The notes beneath the pieces are model-generated. The model did no database searches. It was given only the letters and a program-made list of their open reading frames with translations, and had not been told where the DNA came from. A stretch of DNA of 40,060 nt from Maribacter sp. (GTDB lineage Bacteria; Bacteroidota; Bacteroidia; Flavobacteriales; Flavobacteriaceae): NCBI GenBank assembly GCA_020629285.1, contig JAHDDP010000028.1, positions 1 through 40,060 on the forward strand, read 5' to 3'. Below are positions 5,165 through 39,843 of the stretch, piece by piece; the stretch's first letter is position 1, and each line of letters opens with the position of its first letter. The position numbers and the translations under genes were made by a program.

Positions 5165-5581
5165 CTAAAAACGAAGCGATAATTCTTTATCCTCACCTTC
5201 TATGATAAACTTTGCTTCACTGAAAGTTGGGGCACCAACTGGTAATCTACCGCTCATGGCATAATCTTCTGTAGGCATGCCATTATTTGCAAAATCCATT
5301 CGGTTATTGTCATTCGCATCATGTAATACTGAAAATGCGTAATCACCAGGTTGTATGTTCTCAAAAGTTAAAATCAACTCTCCTGCTTCAGCTTTGTTCT
5401 TACTGGTTTTAATACCTTCCGCTTTCATAAAGGTTGTTTCATTATGCAATCCACTTAATATATGACCTTCATTGTTCAATACATTTTCGATAACGACGGT
5501 TAATGTTATGCCTTTTTCTTCTTGGGCGTTCATTGTAAAACTCATTGCAAATACGGTAACTGTAAATAATAACTTTTTCAT
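5165..5581 (-). CDS. DUF2141 domain secreted protein
   Basis: A 138-residue exported protein with a cleavable signal peptide (MKKLLFTVTVFAMSFTMNAQ, likely cut after the Ala before Gln20). The rest is a DUF2141 beta-sandwich-like domain: a strand LTVVIENVLNNEGHI, then PGDYAFSVLHDANDNNRMD, which contains the typical acidic D-x-N-x-N-x-x-D loop that looks like a metal-binding site, then GMPTEDYAMSG. The length is normal for the family. Function is unknown. A possible -7 promoter box (CATCTTTG, at 5613-5620 on the minus strand) lies about 30 bp ahead of the start codon. Confidence 0.85.
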   Translation of the reverse strand: MKKLLFTVTVFAMSFTMNAQEEKGITLTVVIENVLNNEGHILSGLHNETTFMKAEGIKTSKNKAEAGELILTFENIQPGDYAFSVLHDANDNNRMDFANNGMPTEDYAMSGRLPVGAPTFSEAKFIIEGEDKELSLRF

Positions 5582-5733
5582 TTTATAAGGTTTTAAAAAT
5601 TAATTGATGCTTCAAAGATGCCTTATAAATGCATGTTTTAAAAAAGTGATGAACCCAATTGTAGAAATGTGTTACTGAACTGTAATAAGGGAGTACTGTT
5701 TCAAAAAACTCTGATTTTAAAAGAAGTGAATTT

Positions 5734-34403: not shown

Positions 34404-34449
34404 CAGTTAGTTTAAAATACAGTTCAGCTACTAGATAGTACAATTCAGA
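34404..34449 (+). promoter_or_regulatory. Candidate LytTR-binding site upstream of the kinase gene
   Basis: ACAGTTCAG (34420-34428) and ACAATTCAG (34441-34449) are direct repeats separated by exactly 12 bp (period 21). The first matches the family consensus [TA][AC][CA]GTTN[AG][TG] fully, the second with one mismatch. A further full match, TCAGTTAGT, lies at 34404-34412, 16 bp upstream. The site starts 63 bp before a -7-like box. Confidence 0.62.
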
Positions 34450-34482
34450 ATATATTTTTATTTATTGAGTAGAAAAAGTTTC

Positions 34483-34490
34483 ATGTTTGC
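34483..34490 (+). promoter_or_regulatory. -7-like box CATGTTTG ahead of the kinase gene
   Basis: Matches TAnnTTTG at all but the first base; it would give a leader of about 86 bases. No convincing -33 box is present, as expected for an activator-dependent promoter. The rest of 34287-34582 is A/T-rich with no gene; a palindromic CTAATTTT-AAAATTAG-like sequence lies at 34540-34556. Confidence 0.45.
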
Positions 34491-34582
34491 TTTTAACTAG
34501 GACATTTTCAGAAAGAACTATACTTCTAAAAGGAAATCCCTAATTTTAAAAATTAGAAAGCAATCAATTTAAGCTTACAAAC

Positions 34583-35905
34583 ATGAGTAGTTTTTTAAAG
34601 GTAGTAAGGACAGCAATAATCATAGCCTTGGTTATGGAACTAGTTCGGTTGCTTCTATCTGATTGGGAAAGCATAACATTATATAGCGAATTACAATTTA
34701 CTGGTATAGCCTTGCTATATTCTTTTATGCTATCTATGGTTAATATGTATTTCAGCGACTATATCTCTCAAAAATATACATGGGAGAATGAAACGCAAAA
34801 ACGGTTATGGTACGGTGCCGCTGGCTCTATTGTACTTACTGTATTGGCGTTTGGTGCTGTACGCGCGTTTACTGAAATCTATATATTTGGTAAAAGTTTT
34901 GAACAGTACGTAGCCGGGGAAAGGATACAATACTATTTCTATGCGCTGTTGGTTACCCTAGTAGTTTCATTGTTTTTACACGCTTTCTACTTCTATAAAG
35001 CCTTACAAGATACCAAGGTAAAAGAACAAAAAATTATTGCAGGTTCAGCATCTGCAAAGTTCGATGCTTTAAAGAATCAGTTAGACCCTCACTTCCTTTT
35101 TAATAGCTTAAATGTATTGACCAGCCTTATAGAAGAAGATCCTATGCAGGCGCAAAAATTTACGACTTCGCTTTCAAAAGTATATAGGTATGTGTTGGAG
35201 CAGAAGAGCAAAAATCTTATTTCTGTTGACGAAGAACTAAAGTTTGCAAGAACTTATGTGCGACTTCTAAAAATGCGTTTTGAAGATAGTATCGTATTTG
35301 AAATTCCTGATGAGGCACTGGATCCTGAGGCTAAAATAGTACCATTATCCCTACAGTTGTTATTAGAGAATGCGGTAAAGCATAATGTGGTAACCTCTTC
35401 AAAACCACTTCATATTAGAATATATGAAGAAGACGGGTACTTATATGTGGTCAACAATTTACAAGAAAAACAAGTAGTTAAAAAGAGTAGTGGTGTGGGG
35501 CTGCAGAACATTCGTCAGCGTTATGCCATTCTTACCAAAAAGGAAATGCAGATTTTTAAGACCGCTAAAGAGTTTAAGGTGCGTTTACCTATGCTGACAA
35601 ATGCAATTTCTTTTCGAGAAACACAAGATTCCCATATAAGCGCCAAGCGCTATGAGAAAGCAAAAGAAAGGGTAGAACTCATTAAAGGATTCTATGGTAA
35701 CCTTACTTCTTATTGTATTGTTATACCTTTTCTTGCCTATATAAACTTTAAGACGACCAGTTTTGTTTGGGTTATTTTCCCTGCTATGGGTTGGGGTATT
35801 GGTTTAATAGCCCATGGTTTAAAAGCATATGGTTATAATCCGTTGTTTGGTAAAGGCTGGGAAGAAAGAAAAATAAAACAGTATATGGAAGATGATAGAT
35901 TCTGA
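34583..35905 (+). CDS. LytS-type sensor histidine kinase with C-terminal 2TM domain
   Basis: A 440-residue membrane kinase. Four membrane helices (about 8-25, 38-57, 76-95, 117-138) are followed by a His_kinase domain with phospho-acceptor His170 (LDPHFLFNSLN), N-box LLLENAVKHN (259-268) and a glycine box GVGLQNIRQRY (304-314). From about residue 354 to 437 comes a 2TM domain (YEKAKERVELIKGFYGN ... WEERKIKQYM), adding two more helices. Fusion of the kinase to a 2TM domain is unusual and is echoed by four separate 2TM genes downstream. The partner is the LytTR regulator at 37849. Signal unknown. The FMN-barrel gene begins 22 bp downstream. Confidence 0.92.
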   Translation: MSSFLKVVRTAIIIALVMELVRLLLSDWESITLYSELQFTGIALLYSFMLSMVNMYFSDYISQKYTWENETQKRLWYGAAGSIVLTVLAFGAVRAFTEIYIFGKSFEQYVAGERIQYYFYALLVTLVVSLFLHAFYFYKALQDTKVKEQKIIAGSASAKFDALKNQLDPHFLFNSLNVLTSLIEEDPMQAQKFTTSLSKVYRYVLEQKSKNLISVDEELKFARTYVRLLKMRFEDSIVFEIPDEALDPEAKIVPLSLQLLLENAVKHNVVTSSKPLHIRIYEEDGYLYVVNNLQEKQVVKKSSGVGLQNIRQRYAILTKKEMQIFKTAKEFKVRLPMLTNAISFRETQDSHISAKRYEKAKERVELIKGFYGNLTSYCIVIPFLAYINFKTTSFVWVIFPAMGWGIGLIAHGLKAYGYNPLFGKGWEERKIKQYMEDDRF

Positions 35906-35927
35906 ATGAATTTTAAACGGAAACACT

Positions 35928-36380
35928 ATGAAGCTAACAAAAAAGATAAAAGCAGCTATAAGCGATAGTGTATTATGCTGGTTGGCAACCTCTTCTGCCG
36001 ATAACATACCTAATGTGTCACCCAAAGAAATATTCAGTTGCTTTGGAGATAACATGATTATAGTAGCAAATATAGCATCACCACAAACAGTAAAAAATAT
36101 TCAACAAAATAAACACATTTGTATCAGCTTTATAGATATTTTAAAGCAGAAAGGCTTTCAATTGAAAGGAGAGGCTGAAATTATTACAGCAGCTAGTAAA
36201 GAGTACGCTAAGATGGAAAATGTATTGTTGGTGCTAACAGAAGGCAAATTCCCCTTTGGTTCAATAACCAAGATTAGTATTACCAGTGCTAAGCCTATAA
36301 TTGCTCCTAAATACATACTATTCCCCGAAACTACAGAAGAGGACCAGATTGCCAGCGCAAAGAAAAACTACGGATTTTAA
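35928..36380 (+). CDS. Pyridoxamine 5'-phosphate oxidase-like (FMN split-barrel) protein
   Basis: A 150-residue flavin-binding split-barrel protein. Visible features: LCWLATSSADNIPNVSPKEIFS (first strands with the flavin-contacting loop), DNMIIVANIASPQTVKNIQQNKHICISFID and GFQLKGEAEII. The family includes PNP oxidases, flavin reductases and F420 enzymes; it is too short for full PdxH. It lies 22 bp after the kinase gene and before the 2TM genes on the same strand, so it is probably expressed with the kinase. Whether it takes part in the signalling, for example in redox or flavin sensing, is speculation. Confidence 0.85.
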   Translation: MKLTKKIKAAISDSVLCWLATSSADNIPNVSPKEIFSCFGDNMIIVANIASPQTVKNIQQNKHICISFIDILKQKGFQLKGEAEIITAASKEYAKMENVLLVLTEGKFPFGSITKISITSAKPIIAPKYILFPETTEEDQIASAKKNYGF

Positions 36381-36411
36381 GGTCTCTCAATAGTCTAAGA
36401 ACATGCTTTCT

Positions 36412-36441
36412 ACAATTCAGTCGTAAAAAATTACAACTGGG
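36412..36441 (+). promoter_or_regulatory. Second candidate LytTR-binding site, ahead of the small 2TM genes
   Basis: ACAATTCAG (36412-36420) and ACAACTGGG (36433-36441) have a 12-bp spacer and a 21-bp period. The first half-site is identical to the downstream half-site at 34441. An overlapping inverted repeat CAGTCGTAA-AAAA-TTACAACTG lies at 36418-36439 (one mismatch). It starts 63 bp before a -7-like box, as at the kinase promoter. Confidence 0.58.
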
Positions 36442-36474
36442 TATTTCATTTTTTCAAAACCTGTACGATCTGCC

Positions 36475-36482
36475 GAAATTTG
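36475..36482 (+). promoter_or_regulatory. -7-like box GAAATTTG ahead of the small 2TM genes
   Basis: Matches TAnnTTTG except at the first base and lies 41 bp before the ATG at 36524. A weak TTTTC replaces the -33 TTTG, 19 bp upstream. Confidence 0.42.
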
Positions 36483-36523: not shown

Positions 36524-36805
36524 ATGGAATCAAACTTCACAACAGACAGCAATTATAAGTATGAAAAGGCAAAAGAAAAAGTACAAGCTATAAAAGGCTT
36601 TTACGGTAATTTATTGGCCTACTGTATCGTCATACCATTTTTAGCATATATCAATTATAATACAACAAGTTTTCTTTGGTTCATTTTTCCGACACTTGGT
36701 TGGGGGTTTGGTCTATTAATGAACGGACTTTATGCCTTTGACTATAACCCATTATTCGGTAAGAATTGGGAAGAAAGAAAGATCAAAGAATTCATGCAAG
36801 AATAA
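36524..36805 (+). CDS. 2TM domain protein 1 (93 aa)
   Basis: A stand-alone 2TM-domain membrane protein: a charged amphipathic N-terminus (YEKAKEKVQAIKGFYGN), two hydrophobic helices (about 31-47 and 52-69) joined by a short loop with NTTSF, and a cytoplasmic C-terminal WEERKIKEFM tail. By eye, about 58 of 81 aligned residues are identical to the C-terminal domain of the kinase at 34583, the closest pair in the cluster. It is the first gene after the second candidate LytTR site. The function of 2TM domains is unknown. Confidence 0.88.
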   Translation: MESNFTTDSNYKYEKAKEKVQAIKGFYGNLLAYCIVIPFLAYINYNTTSFLWFIFPTLGWGFGLLMNGLYAFDYNPLFGKNWEERKIKEFMQE

Positions 36806-36826: not shown

Positions 36827-37117
36827 ATGGAAAACACAAAATATACAAGAGCAAAAGCAAGAGTTGAAAAAATTAGAAAATTTTATAGAAAAGTAGCGTC
36901 GGCTATCGTAACCATTATAATTGTAGCGACAATCAATTATTATTTTAATGAATGGAGGAATGCCTGGTTTCTTTGGGTAGTATTCGGTTTAAGTATTAGC
37001 TTATTTTTTAAAGCAAATAAAATCTTTAACTTGAATCCGTTTACGGGCAGAGACTGGGAAGAAAGAAAATTACAAGAGTTTTTACAACAAGAGGAAAATA
37101 CAAGAAGATGGAGCTAA
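36827..37117 (+). CDS. 2TM domain protein 2 (96 aa)
   Basis: A second small 2TM protein, more divergent: TRAKARVEKIRKFYRK at the N-terminus, two hydrophobic helices (about 23-40 and 47-62), then NLNPFTGRDWEERKLQEFL and a charged tail. It starts 21 bp after gene 1 and its last codons overlap the start of gene 3 (ATG inside the end of this gene), implying translational coupling. No other domain is visible. Confidence 0.86.
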   Translation: MENTKYTRAKARVEKIRKFYRKVASAIVTIIIVATINYYFNEWRNAWFLWVVFGLSISLFFKANKIFNLNPFTGRDWEERKLQEFLQQEENTRRWS

Positions 37118-37446
37118 ACGAATTTGAACAATCGGATAAATTACTAAGAGCCCAAAAGAAGGTAAAAGAGATAAAGGGGTTTTATATTCACTTACTTGTT
37201 TACGTACTTGTAAACCTGTTTATTATGACAATTACCATTATGGGGATTATGTCTGGCGGAGCTTCGTTCACAGAGGCTTTATTTAACATCGGTACTTTAA
37301 CAACTCCGTTTTTTTGGGGAATAGGTTTGGCATTTCATGCCGCTAGAGTATTTGGATATAGTCCTTTCTTTAGCAAAGATTGGGAGCAGCGCCAGATCAA
37401 TAAATATGTAGAGCAAGATAAACGAGATGCTGAAAAATATAGATAA
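37108..37446 (+). CDS. 2TM domain protein 3 (112 aa)
   Basis: A third 2TM protein: LLRAQKKVKEIKGFYIHLL, then two membrane helices (about 31-48 and 67-82) with a longer loop between them than in proteins 1 and 2, then FGYSPFFSKDWEQRQINKYV. The usual WEERK motif is altered to WEQRQ. The ATG at 37108 lies ten bases before the end of the preceding gene, so translation is probably coupled. Confidence 0.86.
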   Translation: MELNEFEQSDKLLRAQKKVKEIKGFYIHLLVYVLVNLFIMTITIMGIMSGGASFTEALFNIGTLTTPFFWGIGLAFHAARVFGYSPFFSKDWEQRQINKYVEQDKRDAEKYR

Positions 37447-37447
37447 A

Positions 37448-37813
37448 ATGAAAACTGAACGAGCAAACGATTATCTTTCTAATGGCGAGGACAGTAGTTT
37501 CTCTAAGTATGAAAGAGCAAAAGAGAAAGTGGCAAGTATAAAGCGCTTCTATAATCACATATTGGTTTTTCTGATCATAAATATTATGTTGTACGTCTTA
37601 AGACATAAGTTCGTTTTCATTTTGGTAAGTAAAGAAGCATTCGGTAATCCTGAGTTTTTAGAGTGGATAAACTGGAATGTCTACGGTACCTCCATTGTTT
37701 GGGGAATAATACTGGCTATTCATGGAATTGTTGTTTATGGCAATATTTCAGGGTACATGAAGAGGTGGGAAGAACGTAAAATTCAGAAATACATCAATTC
37801 ATATAACGATTAA
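37448..37813 (+). CDS. 2TM domain protein 4 (121 aa)
   Basis: The fourth small 2TM protein, with a longer hydrophilic N-terminus (about 18 residues) before YERAKEKVASIKRFYNHIL, then two helices (about 35-52 and 78-96) separated by an extended loop, and WEERKIQKYI at the C-terminus. I start at the ATG at 37448, one base after the stop of gene 3; an in-frame ATG at 37427 would overlap it. It is followed 35 bp later by the LytTR response regulator gene. Confidence 0.85.
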   Translation: MKTERANDYLSNGEDSSFSKYERAKEKVASIKRFYNHILVFLIINIMLYVLRHKFVFILVSKEAFGNPEFLEWINWNVYGTSIVWGIILAIHGIVVYGNISGYMKRWEERKIQKYINSYND

Positions 37814-37848: not shown

Positions 37849-38613
37849 ATGAAGACCATTATAATTGAAGATGAAAAACCGGCAGCACGCAGGTTGGGTA
37901 GAATGTTAGATAGTTTAGATTTGACCGTTTCTACAATGCTACATTCTGTAGAGGAAGCAATAGATTGGTTTCAGACCAATGAACACCCAGATTTAATCTT
38001 CTTGGATATTCAATTATCGGACGGACTCTCATTCGAGATCTTCGATGTTACAGAAGTACACAGTGCTATCATCTTTACTACCGCTTTTGATGAGTACGCC
38101 CTTAAAGCATTTAAATTGAATAGTATAGACTATTTATTGAAACCTATTGATGATGAAGATCTAGAGCAGGCGGTCAATAAATATAGAAAGCTGTTTAAGT
38201 CTGCAAATGAGCCAAGTAAAATCGCTTTAGATTTTGAAGATATCAAGAAATTATTGGTTAACCCATTAGAGCGCGAGTATAAAAAGCGATTTACGGCGAA
38301 GGTAGGTCAGCATTTAAAAATTATAAATGCAGAAGATGTAGAATGTTTTTATAGTGAAAACAAAGGTACATATGCGGCTACTAAAGATGGTCGCAATTAT
38401 TTATTGGATACTACTTTAGAACAGCTAGAAGAGGAACTAAAACCACAGATGTTCTTTAGGGTCAGTAGAAAGTTCTTTGTGAATATAAATCACATTAAGG
38501 ATATTGTATCTTACACCAATTCTAGATTACAGATCAAGCTAAAGAACAATCCTGATCATGAAATTATAGTGAGTAGAGAAAAGGTGAAAGACTTTAAGCT
38601 TTGGTTAGAGTAG
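37849..38613 (+). CDS. LytTR-family response regulator
   Basis: A 254-residue response regulator. The receiver domain (1-120) has acidic pocket Glu7-Asp8, phospho-acceptor Asp53 (FLDIQL), Thr77-Thr78 (FTTAF) and Lys98 (LLKPID). The C-terminal LytTR DNA-binding domain (about 145-254) has FTAKVGQHLKIINAEDVECF, ENKGTYAATKDGRNYLLDTTLEQLEE (one run of the family pattern) and FRVSRKFFVNINHI. It is the natural partner of the LytS-type kinase at 34583, last gene of the cluster. I propose that it binds the two direct-repeat sites at 34420 and 36412. Confidence 0.93.
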   Translation: MKTIIIEDEKPAARRLGRMLDSLDLTVSTMLHSVEEAIDWFQTNEHPDLIFLDIQLSDGLSFEIFDVTEVHSAIIFTTAFDEYALKAFKLNSIDYLLKPIDDEDLEQAVNKYRKLFKSANEPSKIALDFEDIKKLLVNPLEREYKKRFTAKVGQHLKIINAEDVECFYSENKGTYAATKDGRNYLLDTTLEQLEEELKPQMFFRVSRKFFVNINHIKDIVSYTNSRLQIKLKNNPDHEIIVSREKVKDFKLWLE

Positions 38614-38637: not shown

Positions 38638-39843
38638 TTATTTACGATATAAATCTTCTTCCTCGTCAATTCTATTTTCATCAAATGCCGATGGTAATAG
38701 CTTGGGTATCAGCTTAATGAATATTGGCAGTAAAATAGCTCCGCCAGGTAGTATGAATATAGCCAAAGACGGAATACTTTTAAAAATATCTAAAAGTTGA
38801 TTCTGTACTTTTTTCTTTTCTTCATTACTTAAATCCCTAACTGTAGATTTTGACAGCAGGGCAACTAACTCTGCACTTTGCGAAAGCTCCTTAAGCAGGC
38901 GTTTGCTATTTCGTAGAATCAACTTCTTTACGATTTTACCCATACTGTCGTAAAACTGTTGTGCTAGGTTCTTTTCCTTTAAATAGGGTATGACATCAAA
39001 ATTGAGTTTAAAGAACTCGGTAACATCGGTAATTGATGTTGAGATAATGGTTCTATCGAATCCTAAGTCTTTTCCTATTCCGAAGATAAATTCAGATTCG
39101 GTATAATCTAAAGAATGATCTTCCCAAACCGTAAGGCAAGCTATGTCAAGCAAGTATTTATTTTCCCAGTTATCCTTATTATCAAGCAATCTTTTACGGT
39201 AAGAACCATCAAAACTACTCTCTGCACAATTAATATAGGTTAACGAAGAGGCTAATAGTTGAGAAAGCTTATTATCTTTTCTGTCTTGCTCTTTAGAGCT
39301 TAAGGCATCAAATGTAATGTTGATGGCTAGGTATTCTATCTCTTCAGCTTTCTTCTTTAAATCAATAGATTCATTTAAAAAAAGCTTAAAAAGCAGTACA
39401 TCAATAAATAAAAGAGAATTGGTAATAAGACTATTGAAAGTTTTACTGATAATATTGTCTTCAATATAAATTCTTGAGGTCATCAGCTTTTCAAGCTTTG
39501 CAGAAGTTTTGTTTCCGGTAAACCACTTGTCAAAAAAACCTGCACGGCTAATATTCAGTATTTCGTAAAATTGAAATACCTCTTCTATAAAAGTGCTGTA
39601 GTCGTTACCACCCATAATTCTATAGGTGAAATACAGTGCGTGTAATAAATTGATTTTCGCTTTTTCGTCTTCAGATAGGGTATACTCCAATTCAATGAAC
39701 CCTGGTATACTAGAATTTAGCCCATAAACAAATCCGCTTTTTTTAAGCGTAGCGTATAACACTTCAAAAGTTGGAAATTCGTCTTGGTGTTTTTGAACAA
39801 CCGAACCATATTTCTCGATCCAACCAGAGGAAGACGGATTCAT
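38638..39843 (-). CDS. LETM1-related protein (biofilm-associated family)
   Basis: A 401-residue protein of a Bacteroidota family annotated as LETM1-related biofilm-associated. The first about 310 residues are largely helical without a named domain. The C-terminal part (about 325-385) has the LETM1-like arrangement: a charged helix LSNEEKKKVQNQLLDIFKSI followed by a membrane segment with two prolines (SLAIFILPGGAILLPIFIKL) and LIPKLLP. Mitochondrial LETM1 is involved in cation/proton exchange; the bacterial function is unknown. It is convergent with the LytTR regulator gene, 24 bp apart. Confidence 0.82.
   Translation of the reverse strand: MNPSSSGWIEKYGSVVQKHQDEFPTFEVLYATLKKSGFVYGLNSSIPGFIELEYTLSEDEKAKINLLHALYFTYRIMGGNDYSTFIEEVFQFYEILNISRAGFFDKWFTGNKTSAKLEKLMTSRIYIEDNIISKTFNSLITNSLLFIDVLLFKLFLNESIDLKKKAEEIEYLAINITFDALSSKEQDRKDNKLSQLLASSLTYINCAESSFDGSYRKRLLDNKDNWENKYLLDIACLTVWEDHSLDYTESEFIFGIGKDLGFDRTIISTSITDVTEFFKLNFDVIPYLKEKNLAQQFYDSMGKIVKKLILRNSKRLLKELSQSAELVALLSKSTVRDLSNEEKKKVQNQLLDIFKSIPSLAIFILPGGAILLPIFIKLIPKLLPSAFDENRIDEEEDLYRK

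Follow-up and report, generated by a model that had tools for sequence, protein, structure and literature searches.

A probable LytS/LytTR circuit with a fixed direct-repeat promoter geometry and Hus-like target genes in Maribacter

Described LytTR systems and the Maribacter locus

LytSR, BtsSR and YpdAB are two-component systems of the LytS/LytR type. Like them, the system described here combines a PF06580 histidine kinase with a regulator that carries a receiver (PF00072) and a LytTR domain (PF04397), which identifies it as a LytS/LytTR two-component system. It is encoded in a stretch of 40,060 nucleotides from Maribacter sp. (Flavobacteriaceae; assembly GCA_020629285.1, contig JAHDDP010000028.1), referred to as the window, in which direct repeats precede the kinase gene and an operon of four 2TM genes and the regulator gene. 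It differs from the LytSR, BtsSR and YpdAB type in the 2TM domain at the C-terminus of its kinase and in the free 2TM proteins among its proposed targets. Judged from the sequence, the locus probably encodes an autoregulated LytS/LytTR system that activates a Hus-like uptake regulon. To our knowledge, few LytTR-type sites have been described in the Bacteroidota order concerned.

LytTR promoters of Firmicutes and other bacteria, including those of the LytTR regulatory systems (LRS) HdrR and BrsR of Streptococcus mutans, share with the Maribacter sites the 9-bp direct repeats, a spacer of mostly 12 bp, a position just upstream of the promoter and autoregulation (PMC6193735, in part). Several rows of Table 3 in that paper give 10 bp + 6 + 17 = 33 bp to the -10 element. 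In contrast, the half-site sequence found here is a different one and the -7 box is of the Bacteroidota type. An LRS is defined there by a LytTR protein and an inhibitory membrane protein and is set apart from two-component systems, the S. mutans regulators being receiver-less, whereas the locus studied here has a receiver-type regulator and a histidine kinase and so falls outside this definition. Within the same phylum, Bacteroides thetaiotaomicron and B. ovatus have LRS-like operons that likewise encode a LytTR protein, and there too direct repeats precede a TATCTTTG box (11 + 4 + 19 = 34 bp). Their repeats, however, are 11 bp long and of other sequence, the LytTR protein has transmembrane segments, and an NfeD/DUF2154 membrane protein replaces the kinase, 2TM and uptake genes (PMC6193735, in part).

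The HusA/HusB haem uptake system of Porphyromonas gingivalis resembles the proposed target genes in that a HusA-like TPR-fold protein is encoded next to a TonB-dependent receptor (PMC6173696, in part). Unlike in P. gingivalis, the unit described here includes kinase, LytTR regulator, 2TM and DUF2141 genes, and most of the ligand-contact positions checked are not kept. Transcription start sites have been mapped in Flavobacterium psychrophilum, where LytTR does not appear in the main text (PMC9723704). We recognised no description of the site or the regulon in searches of an open-access library, in which a link between HusA and LytTR was not itself a search term. The parts, namely LytTR promoters, LytSR-type systems and Hus uptake, are already known; their combination and the wide, fixed geometry were not found in that literature.

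Promoter geometry and its conservation

The kinase promoter and the promoter of the 2TM-regulator operon both contain a direct repeat of two 9-bp half-sites with a 12-bp spacer, and in both the end of the repeat lies 33 bp from a -7-like box (Table 1). Two 9-bp units repeated directly, 11-13 bp apart, at a fixed 33 bp upstream of a -10/-7 element have the make-up of a LytTR promoter. An earlier note, made from the sequence alone, had pointed out both sites. The coordinates it gave for the second (36412-36441, box at 36475) hold, while those for the first (34420-34449, box at 34483) are one base too high, the box starting at 34482. As the note had observed, the first half-site starts 63 bp before the box in both promoters, the box matches TAnnTTTG at all but one base, and a good -33 box is missing, since TTTG is not present there. 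The mismatch in CATGTTTG and GAAATTTG is the first base of the box. Measured against the consensus quoted in the note, [TA][AC][CA]GTTN[AG][TG], ACAGTTCAG fits, ACAATTCAG is off at one position and ACAACTGGG at two.

A logo of 52 nonredundant sites, drawn from loci partly fetched by the box, shows how far these promoters depart from the consensus. In place of the -33 TTTG they carry a T-tract: three consecutive positions have T in 51/52, 43/52 and 37/52 sites, and the next has G in only 2/52; the kinase site of the window has TAT there. In the -7 box AnnTTTG is kept and the first base is T in 12/52 sites, a count from a set that was partly fetched by the box itself.

Single half-sites with up to one mismatch are not enriched (18 matches versus 19.7 expected). 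The combination of repeat and box, in contrast, was found 73 times in 25 of 36 Maribacter genomes and the reversed pattern not once. All 73 matches have a gap of 33 bp, although 32-34 was allowed, and four of them lie in the window's own genome (G000), a 3.6 Mb draft of which the window is contig C124. When repeat spacing (5-20) and box distance (18-48) were left free in the same 36 genomes, giving 496 geometries, 73/76 matches fell on 12/33, compared with two matches of any geometry for the reversed pattern. Among the three others, a kinase-type promoter (G014:C1:713277) has the box at 26 rather than 33 bp and lies about 7 kb from a normal one; by eye, the second reads like coding sequence, and the third spans 50 bases (9+33+8) with a degenerate upstream half-site and the box still at 33. 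In a sample of 146 genomes from the order, 55 matches occur in 31 genomes, all at a gap of 33 with 30-36 allowed and none in the control. A phylum sample of 118 genomes, which overlaps the order sample, yielded matches in 13 genomes; the family of the window accounts for 11, its own genome included.

Fairer evidence on the geometry comes from loci fetched by the regulator, because the logo loci were partly fetched by the box. With a half-site score trained on the sites of this analysis, box excluded, and a cut-off of 14 bits, 51 such loci contain 76 distinct sites, compared with one in reversed sequences. The box stands at 33 for 63/76 sites, and seven box matches are spread over 55 other distances. 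Twenty of these loci (L110-L118, L174-L184) were picked mainly because their genomes lack the strict pattern. The claim of the note that the shared spacing makes chance less likely is thus borne out by a genus- and order-wide geometry with controls near zero. A looser scan for repeats in the own genome gave 61 matches, 54 of them with two mismatches, and 45 in the reversed control; the one-mismatch repeats C28:15167 and C139:11630 were set aside since they lie inside reading frames.

Conservation of the repeats in orthologous loci, the check that the note had proposed, was favourable in Maribacter and in other genera. The promoters were aligned over 13 Maribacter rows, two loci (L011 and L023) having been dropped before the count. 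In the kinase promoter, the mean majority is 0.95 for half-site 1, 0.85 for half-site 2 and 0.95 for the box. The sequence around them scores lower, at 0.60 upstream of the repeat, 0.55 in its spacer, 0.73 over the 33-bp gap and 0.76 from the box to the ATG. The 2TM promoter reaches 1.00 for half-site 1 (identical in 13/13), 0.97 for half-site 2 and 1.00 for the box, with 0.90 in the spacer, 0.67 upstream, 0.89 in the gap and 0.84 down to the ATG. The first box base is C in 13/13 kinase promoters and G in 13/13 2TM promoters. A fixed base other than T at this position fits promoters that are deliberately kept weak.

The shared gene set and its regulator

A third site in the window, overlooked in the earlier note, precedes a DUF2141 gene on the reverse strand (5683-5613; half-sites ACAGTTCAG and ACAATTGGG, box CATCTTTG). 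Two more are found on contig C34 of the same genome, upstream of genes for a TonB-dependent receptor and for a TPR-like secreted, HusA-like protein; both have the box at 33, and the site of the TPR gene has one mismatch in its first half-site. In other genera these genes are joined with kinase and regulator in one operon behind a single site: DUF2141-TPR-kinase-2TM-regulator in L156, TPR-DUF2141-kinase-2TM-regulator in L166, DUF2141-kinase-2TM-regulator in L169 and L171, and TPR-kinase-regulator in L163. The set behind the sites (kinase, 2TM and regulator, DUF2141, TonB receptor, HusA homologue) is the same while the operon order is shuffled. What speaks most for a single regulon, in our view, is that genes which are operon mates elsewhere are each preceded by a separate site in Maribacter.

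Presence of the site tracks the regulator. With orthologues of the window's regulator called at E 1e-55 or better, 62 of the 146 order-sample genomes have this regulator, among them all 31/31 site-positive genomes, and a strict site occurs in 0/84 genomes without it. Within the window's own family the site is present in 23/26 regulator-positive and 0/2 negative genomes. The Fisher value of this association, 9.5e-15, overstates the case because related genomes are not independent. In Maribacter, 34/36 genomes have the regulator; strict sites are present in 20/20 genomes with a regulator identity of 88% or more, and with the looser score in 9/9 loci looked at from the 77-83% identity group. Eleven loci come from genomes with the regulator but without the strict pattern; in L178 and L180 the sites have the box at 33, in L174-L176 at 33 or 34, and L179 has repeats without the strict box. 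The suggestion of the note that the regulator at 37849 acts on the kinase and 2TM promoters is supported by this co-occurrence; its list of targets was too narrow, the regulator gene and the DUF2141, TonB-receptor and HusA-like genes sharing the site as well.

Some sites lie outside the Hus-like set. In 2/18 order-wide loci examined (L168:8859 and L170:8731, both reverse strand) they precede DUF2807 (head GIN) genes. As side observations, a strict 12/33 site (L123:1154) precedes an unassigned 204-aa gene, and a repeat of strict geometry (L124:938) precedes a gene for a beta-lactamase-family serine hydrolase; the serine hydrolase repeat of the own genome (G000:C97:183273, L077) has a degenerate half-site and the box TATATTTA. 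A paralogous operon for an outer membrane protein (OMP), a kinase and a LytTR regulator (G000:C6:13589-13560, L073) carries the degenerate repeat CCAACTCAT-N12-CCAATTGGG with an TAGTTTTA box at 33 bp. In Flavobacterium johnsoniae coevolved with Burkholderia thailandensis, a LytTR or kinase gene (FJOH_RS09515 and RS09520, neighbouring locus numbers) was mutated in 5/5 lines (PMC10197871, in part).

Table 1. Sites and genes of the proposed circuit in the window
Feature	Position	Strand	Basis
Kinase promoter half-site 1, ACAGTTCAG	34419..34427	+	sequence
Kinase promoter half-site 2, ACAATTCAG	34440..34448	+	sequence
Kinase promoter -7-like box CATGTTTG, 33 bp past half-site 2	34482..34489	+	sequence
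2TM-regulator operon promoter half-site 1, ACAATTCAG	36412..36420	+	sequence
2TM-regulator operon promoter half-site 2, ACAACTGGG	36433..36441	+	sequence
2TM-regulator operon -7-like box GAAATTTG, 33 bp past half-site 2	36475..36482	+	sequence
Third site half-site 1, ACAGTTCAG	5675..5683	-	sequence
Third site half-site 2, ACAATTGGG	5654..5662	-	sequence
Third site -7-like box CATCTTTG, 33 bp past half-site 2	5613..5620	-	sequence
Probably exported DUF2141 protein (PF09912), proposed member of the regulon	5165..5581	-	domain search
LytS-type histidine kinase, PF06580 + C-terminal 2TM domain PF13239	34583..35905	+	open reading frame, domain search
PNPOx-type split-barrel protein	35928..36380	+	nearest solved structures HupZ, E 3.6e-6
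2TM protein a	36524..36805	+	69% identity to the C-terminal 2TM domain of the kinase
2TM protein b	36827..37117	+	open reading frame, domain search
2TM protein c	37108..37446	+	open reading frame, domain search
2TM protein d	37448..37813 (open frame from 37427)	+	open reading frame, domain search
Response regulator, receiver PF00072 + LytTR PF04397, proposed binder of the sites	37849..38613	+	domain search

The regulator shares 99% identity with its counterpart in a named Maribacter strain, in line with the assignment of the window to this genus. In an alignment of 15 regulators, residues D53 and K98 are invariant. A profile of the regulator matched mostly receiver domains in the PDB, and in NCBIfam no model above its cut-off named a cluster protein, the BtsR and LytR models remaining below theirs. 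The PNPOx gene adjoins the kinase gene in only 9/15 mapped Maribacter clusters and was therefore not counted as a core member. A confident model of the DUF2141 protein (pLDDT 88) had no structural match in Foldseek at a threshold of E 0.001, and no sequence match was better than E 0.2. The kinase tail and the first 2TM protein, compared in 23 loci, share 45-77% in 22 of them and 35% in one. Gene conversion between the two was considered and no sign of it seen, as the kinase tails and the 2TM proteins of Maribacter fall into separate groups, in a short alignment with few well-supported forks. A LETM1_RBD-like gene (38638-39843, reverse strand) is convergent to the regulator gene, and similar-looking frames lie in the same place in L165 and L215.

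Proposed mechanism and alternative readings

We consider it likely that these results are best explained jointly by the regulator at 37849 binding the repeats, activating the promoters including its own, and controlling Hus-like uptake. A LytTR dimer would bind the 9-12-9 repeat directly upstream of the -35 region. With the TAnnTTTG box taken as -12 to -5, where it has been placed (PMC9723704, in part), the repeats would span roughly -75 to -46. The bound dimer may recruit RNA polymerase by contact to promoters that would be weak by design, having neither a -33 TTTG nor a T to open the -7 box. The kinase gene would be driven from one site and the four 2TM genes and the regulator gene from the other; since the regulator gene lies within the 2TM operon, the loop would be positively autoregulatory. 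Further copies would drive the DUF2141 gene and, on C34, the genes for the TonB-dependent receptor and the HusA-like haemophore. The kinase would sense a ligand at the membrane and may be modulated by the 2TM proteins, which include a free relative of its own tail.

Several observations weigh against this explanation. Published LytTR rows other than those cited above, S. mutans' own included, differ from 33 bp (PMC6193735, in part), and a distance of 34 occurs in a few loci (L174-L176 and L214, the latter having 33, 33 and 34). Strict repeats without a strict box at 33 are present in the regulator-fetched loci L033, L037 and L179, and kinase promoters have partly decayed in L019 and L021 (box) and in L020 (half-site 2). 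In the order sample a strict site accompanies the regulator in only 31/62 genomes, and in Maribacter in only 4/14 genomes with a regulator at 77-83% identity; among the 11 loci from genomes negative for the strict pattern, L177 and L181-L184 showed no site at the 14-bit cut-off. Conversely, a Maribacter genome (G025, 68% complete) with two sites had no match to the regulator. The genomes also share kinship, so that the counts are not independent. As regards uptake, the TonB receptor had no sequence match in the PDB, 6/12 Hus-like loci examined lack a nearby kinase-regulator pair, and of the HusA residues tied to ligand binding (PMC6173696, in part), F80 is kept (F in 14/16) but the positions of W130 and Y164 are mostly Gly (15/16 and 14/16), as placed by hand from an alignment at 21-22% identity.

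The last of these points bears on the ligand. The regulon may be real and serve a compound other than haem or porphyrin, perhaps another hydrophobic or planar one, and we regard this as a serious, if less probable, possibility. Besides the replaced W130 and Y164, the TPR fold is common to many unrelated proteins, and the DUF2141 protein offers no significant structural match. On the other hand, the HusA homologue is matched near full-length by profile at E 1.3e-25, far above generic TPR proteins. The C34 receptor has Plug and CarbopepD_reg_2 domains, a receptor adjoins the HusA-like gene in 11/12 loci, and the window's cluster includes a HupZ-like PNPOx protein. On this homology and gene context, the circuit most likely controls Hus-like uptake of haem, porphyrins or a similar ligand.

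It is improbable that the sites are bound, alone or with crosstalk, by a LytTR paralogue present in the same cell. Counting the regulator itself, its own genome contains 10 matches to it, with LytTR paralogues among them, the C6 operon carries its degenerate repeat in the same geometry, and genes outside the Hus-like set are preceded by sites too. However, the C6 paralogue, the one surveyed across genomes, was matched at E 1e-45 or better in 7/146 genomes, of which three are site-positive, and a regulator present in only 3/31 site-positive genomes was rejected as the sole cognate one; the window-type regulator is present in all 31, and its gene sits in a site-bearing operon in many loci. If the regulator at 37849 is the binder, it could also repress the promoters, or both repress and activate them, as the direction of control is not readable from sequence. 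We consider this quite improbable: the repeats stop upstream of the -35 region, some 46 bp short of the inferred start, their spacing is that of published LytTR promoters held to be activated (PMC6193735, in part), and the departure of the core promoter from the consensus is conserved. That both repeats and their shared spacing are a coincidence, as the unremarkable frequency of single half-sites might suggest, is refuted by the near-zero controls in genus and order.

Activation by the 37849 regulator, the reading we prefer, may be extended. It is a tentative and rather unlikely proposal that one regulon spans several families of the order, that its 2TM-tailed membrane kinase monitors haem, porphyrin or a related ligand as it passes through the kinase's own Hus-like uptake system, that free 2TM proteins related to the kinase tail compete for the kinase or cap it in the membrane as feedback, and that the 33 bp is a constant of LytTR and RNA polymerase, kept in Firmicutes and Bacteroidota despite different promoter elements. 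The common spacing suggests one conserved mode of contact between LytTR proteins and RNA polymerase. For the 62/146 order-sample genomes that have this two-component system, the analysis provides a regulator, a set of genes and a concrete DNA code, and two families without known function, 2TM and DUF2141, are given a proposed setting. If the Hus link is true, the control of haem and porphyrin uptake in free-living Bacteroidota would become directly testable.
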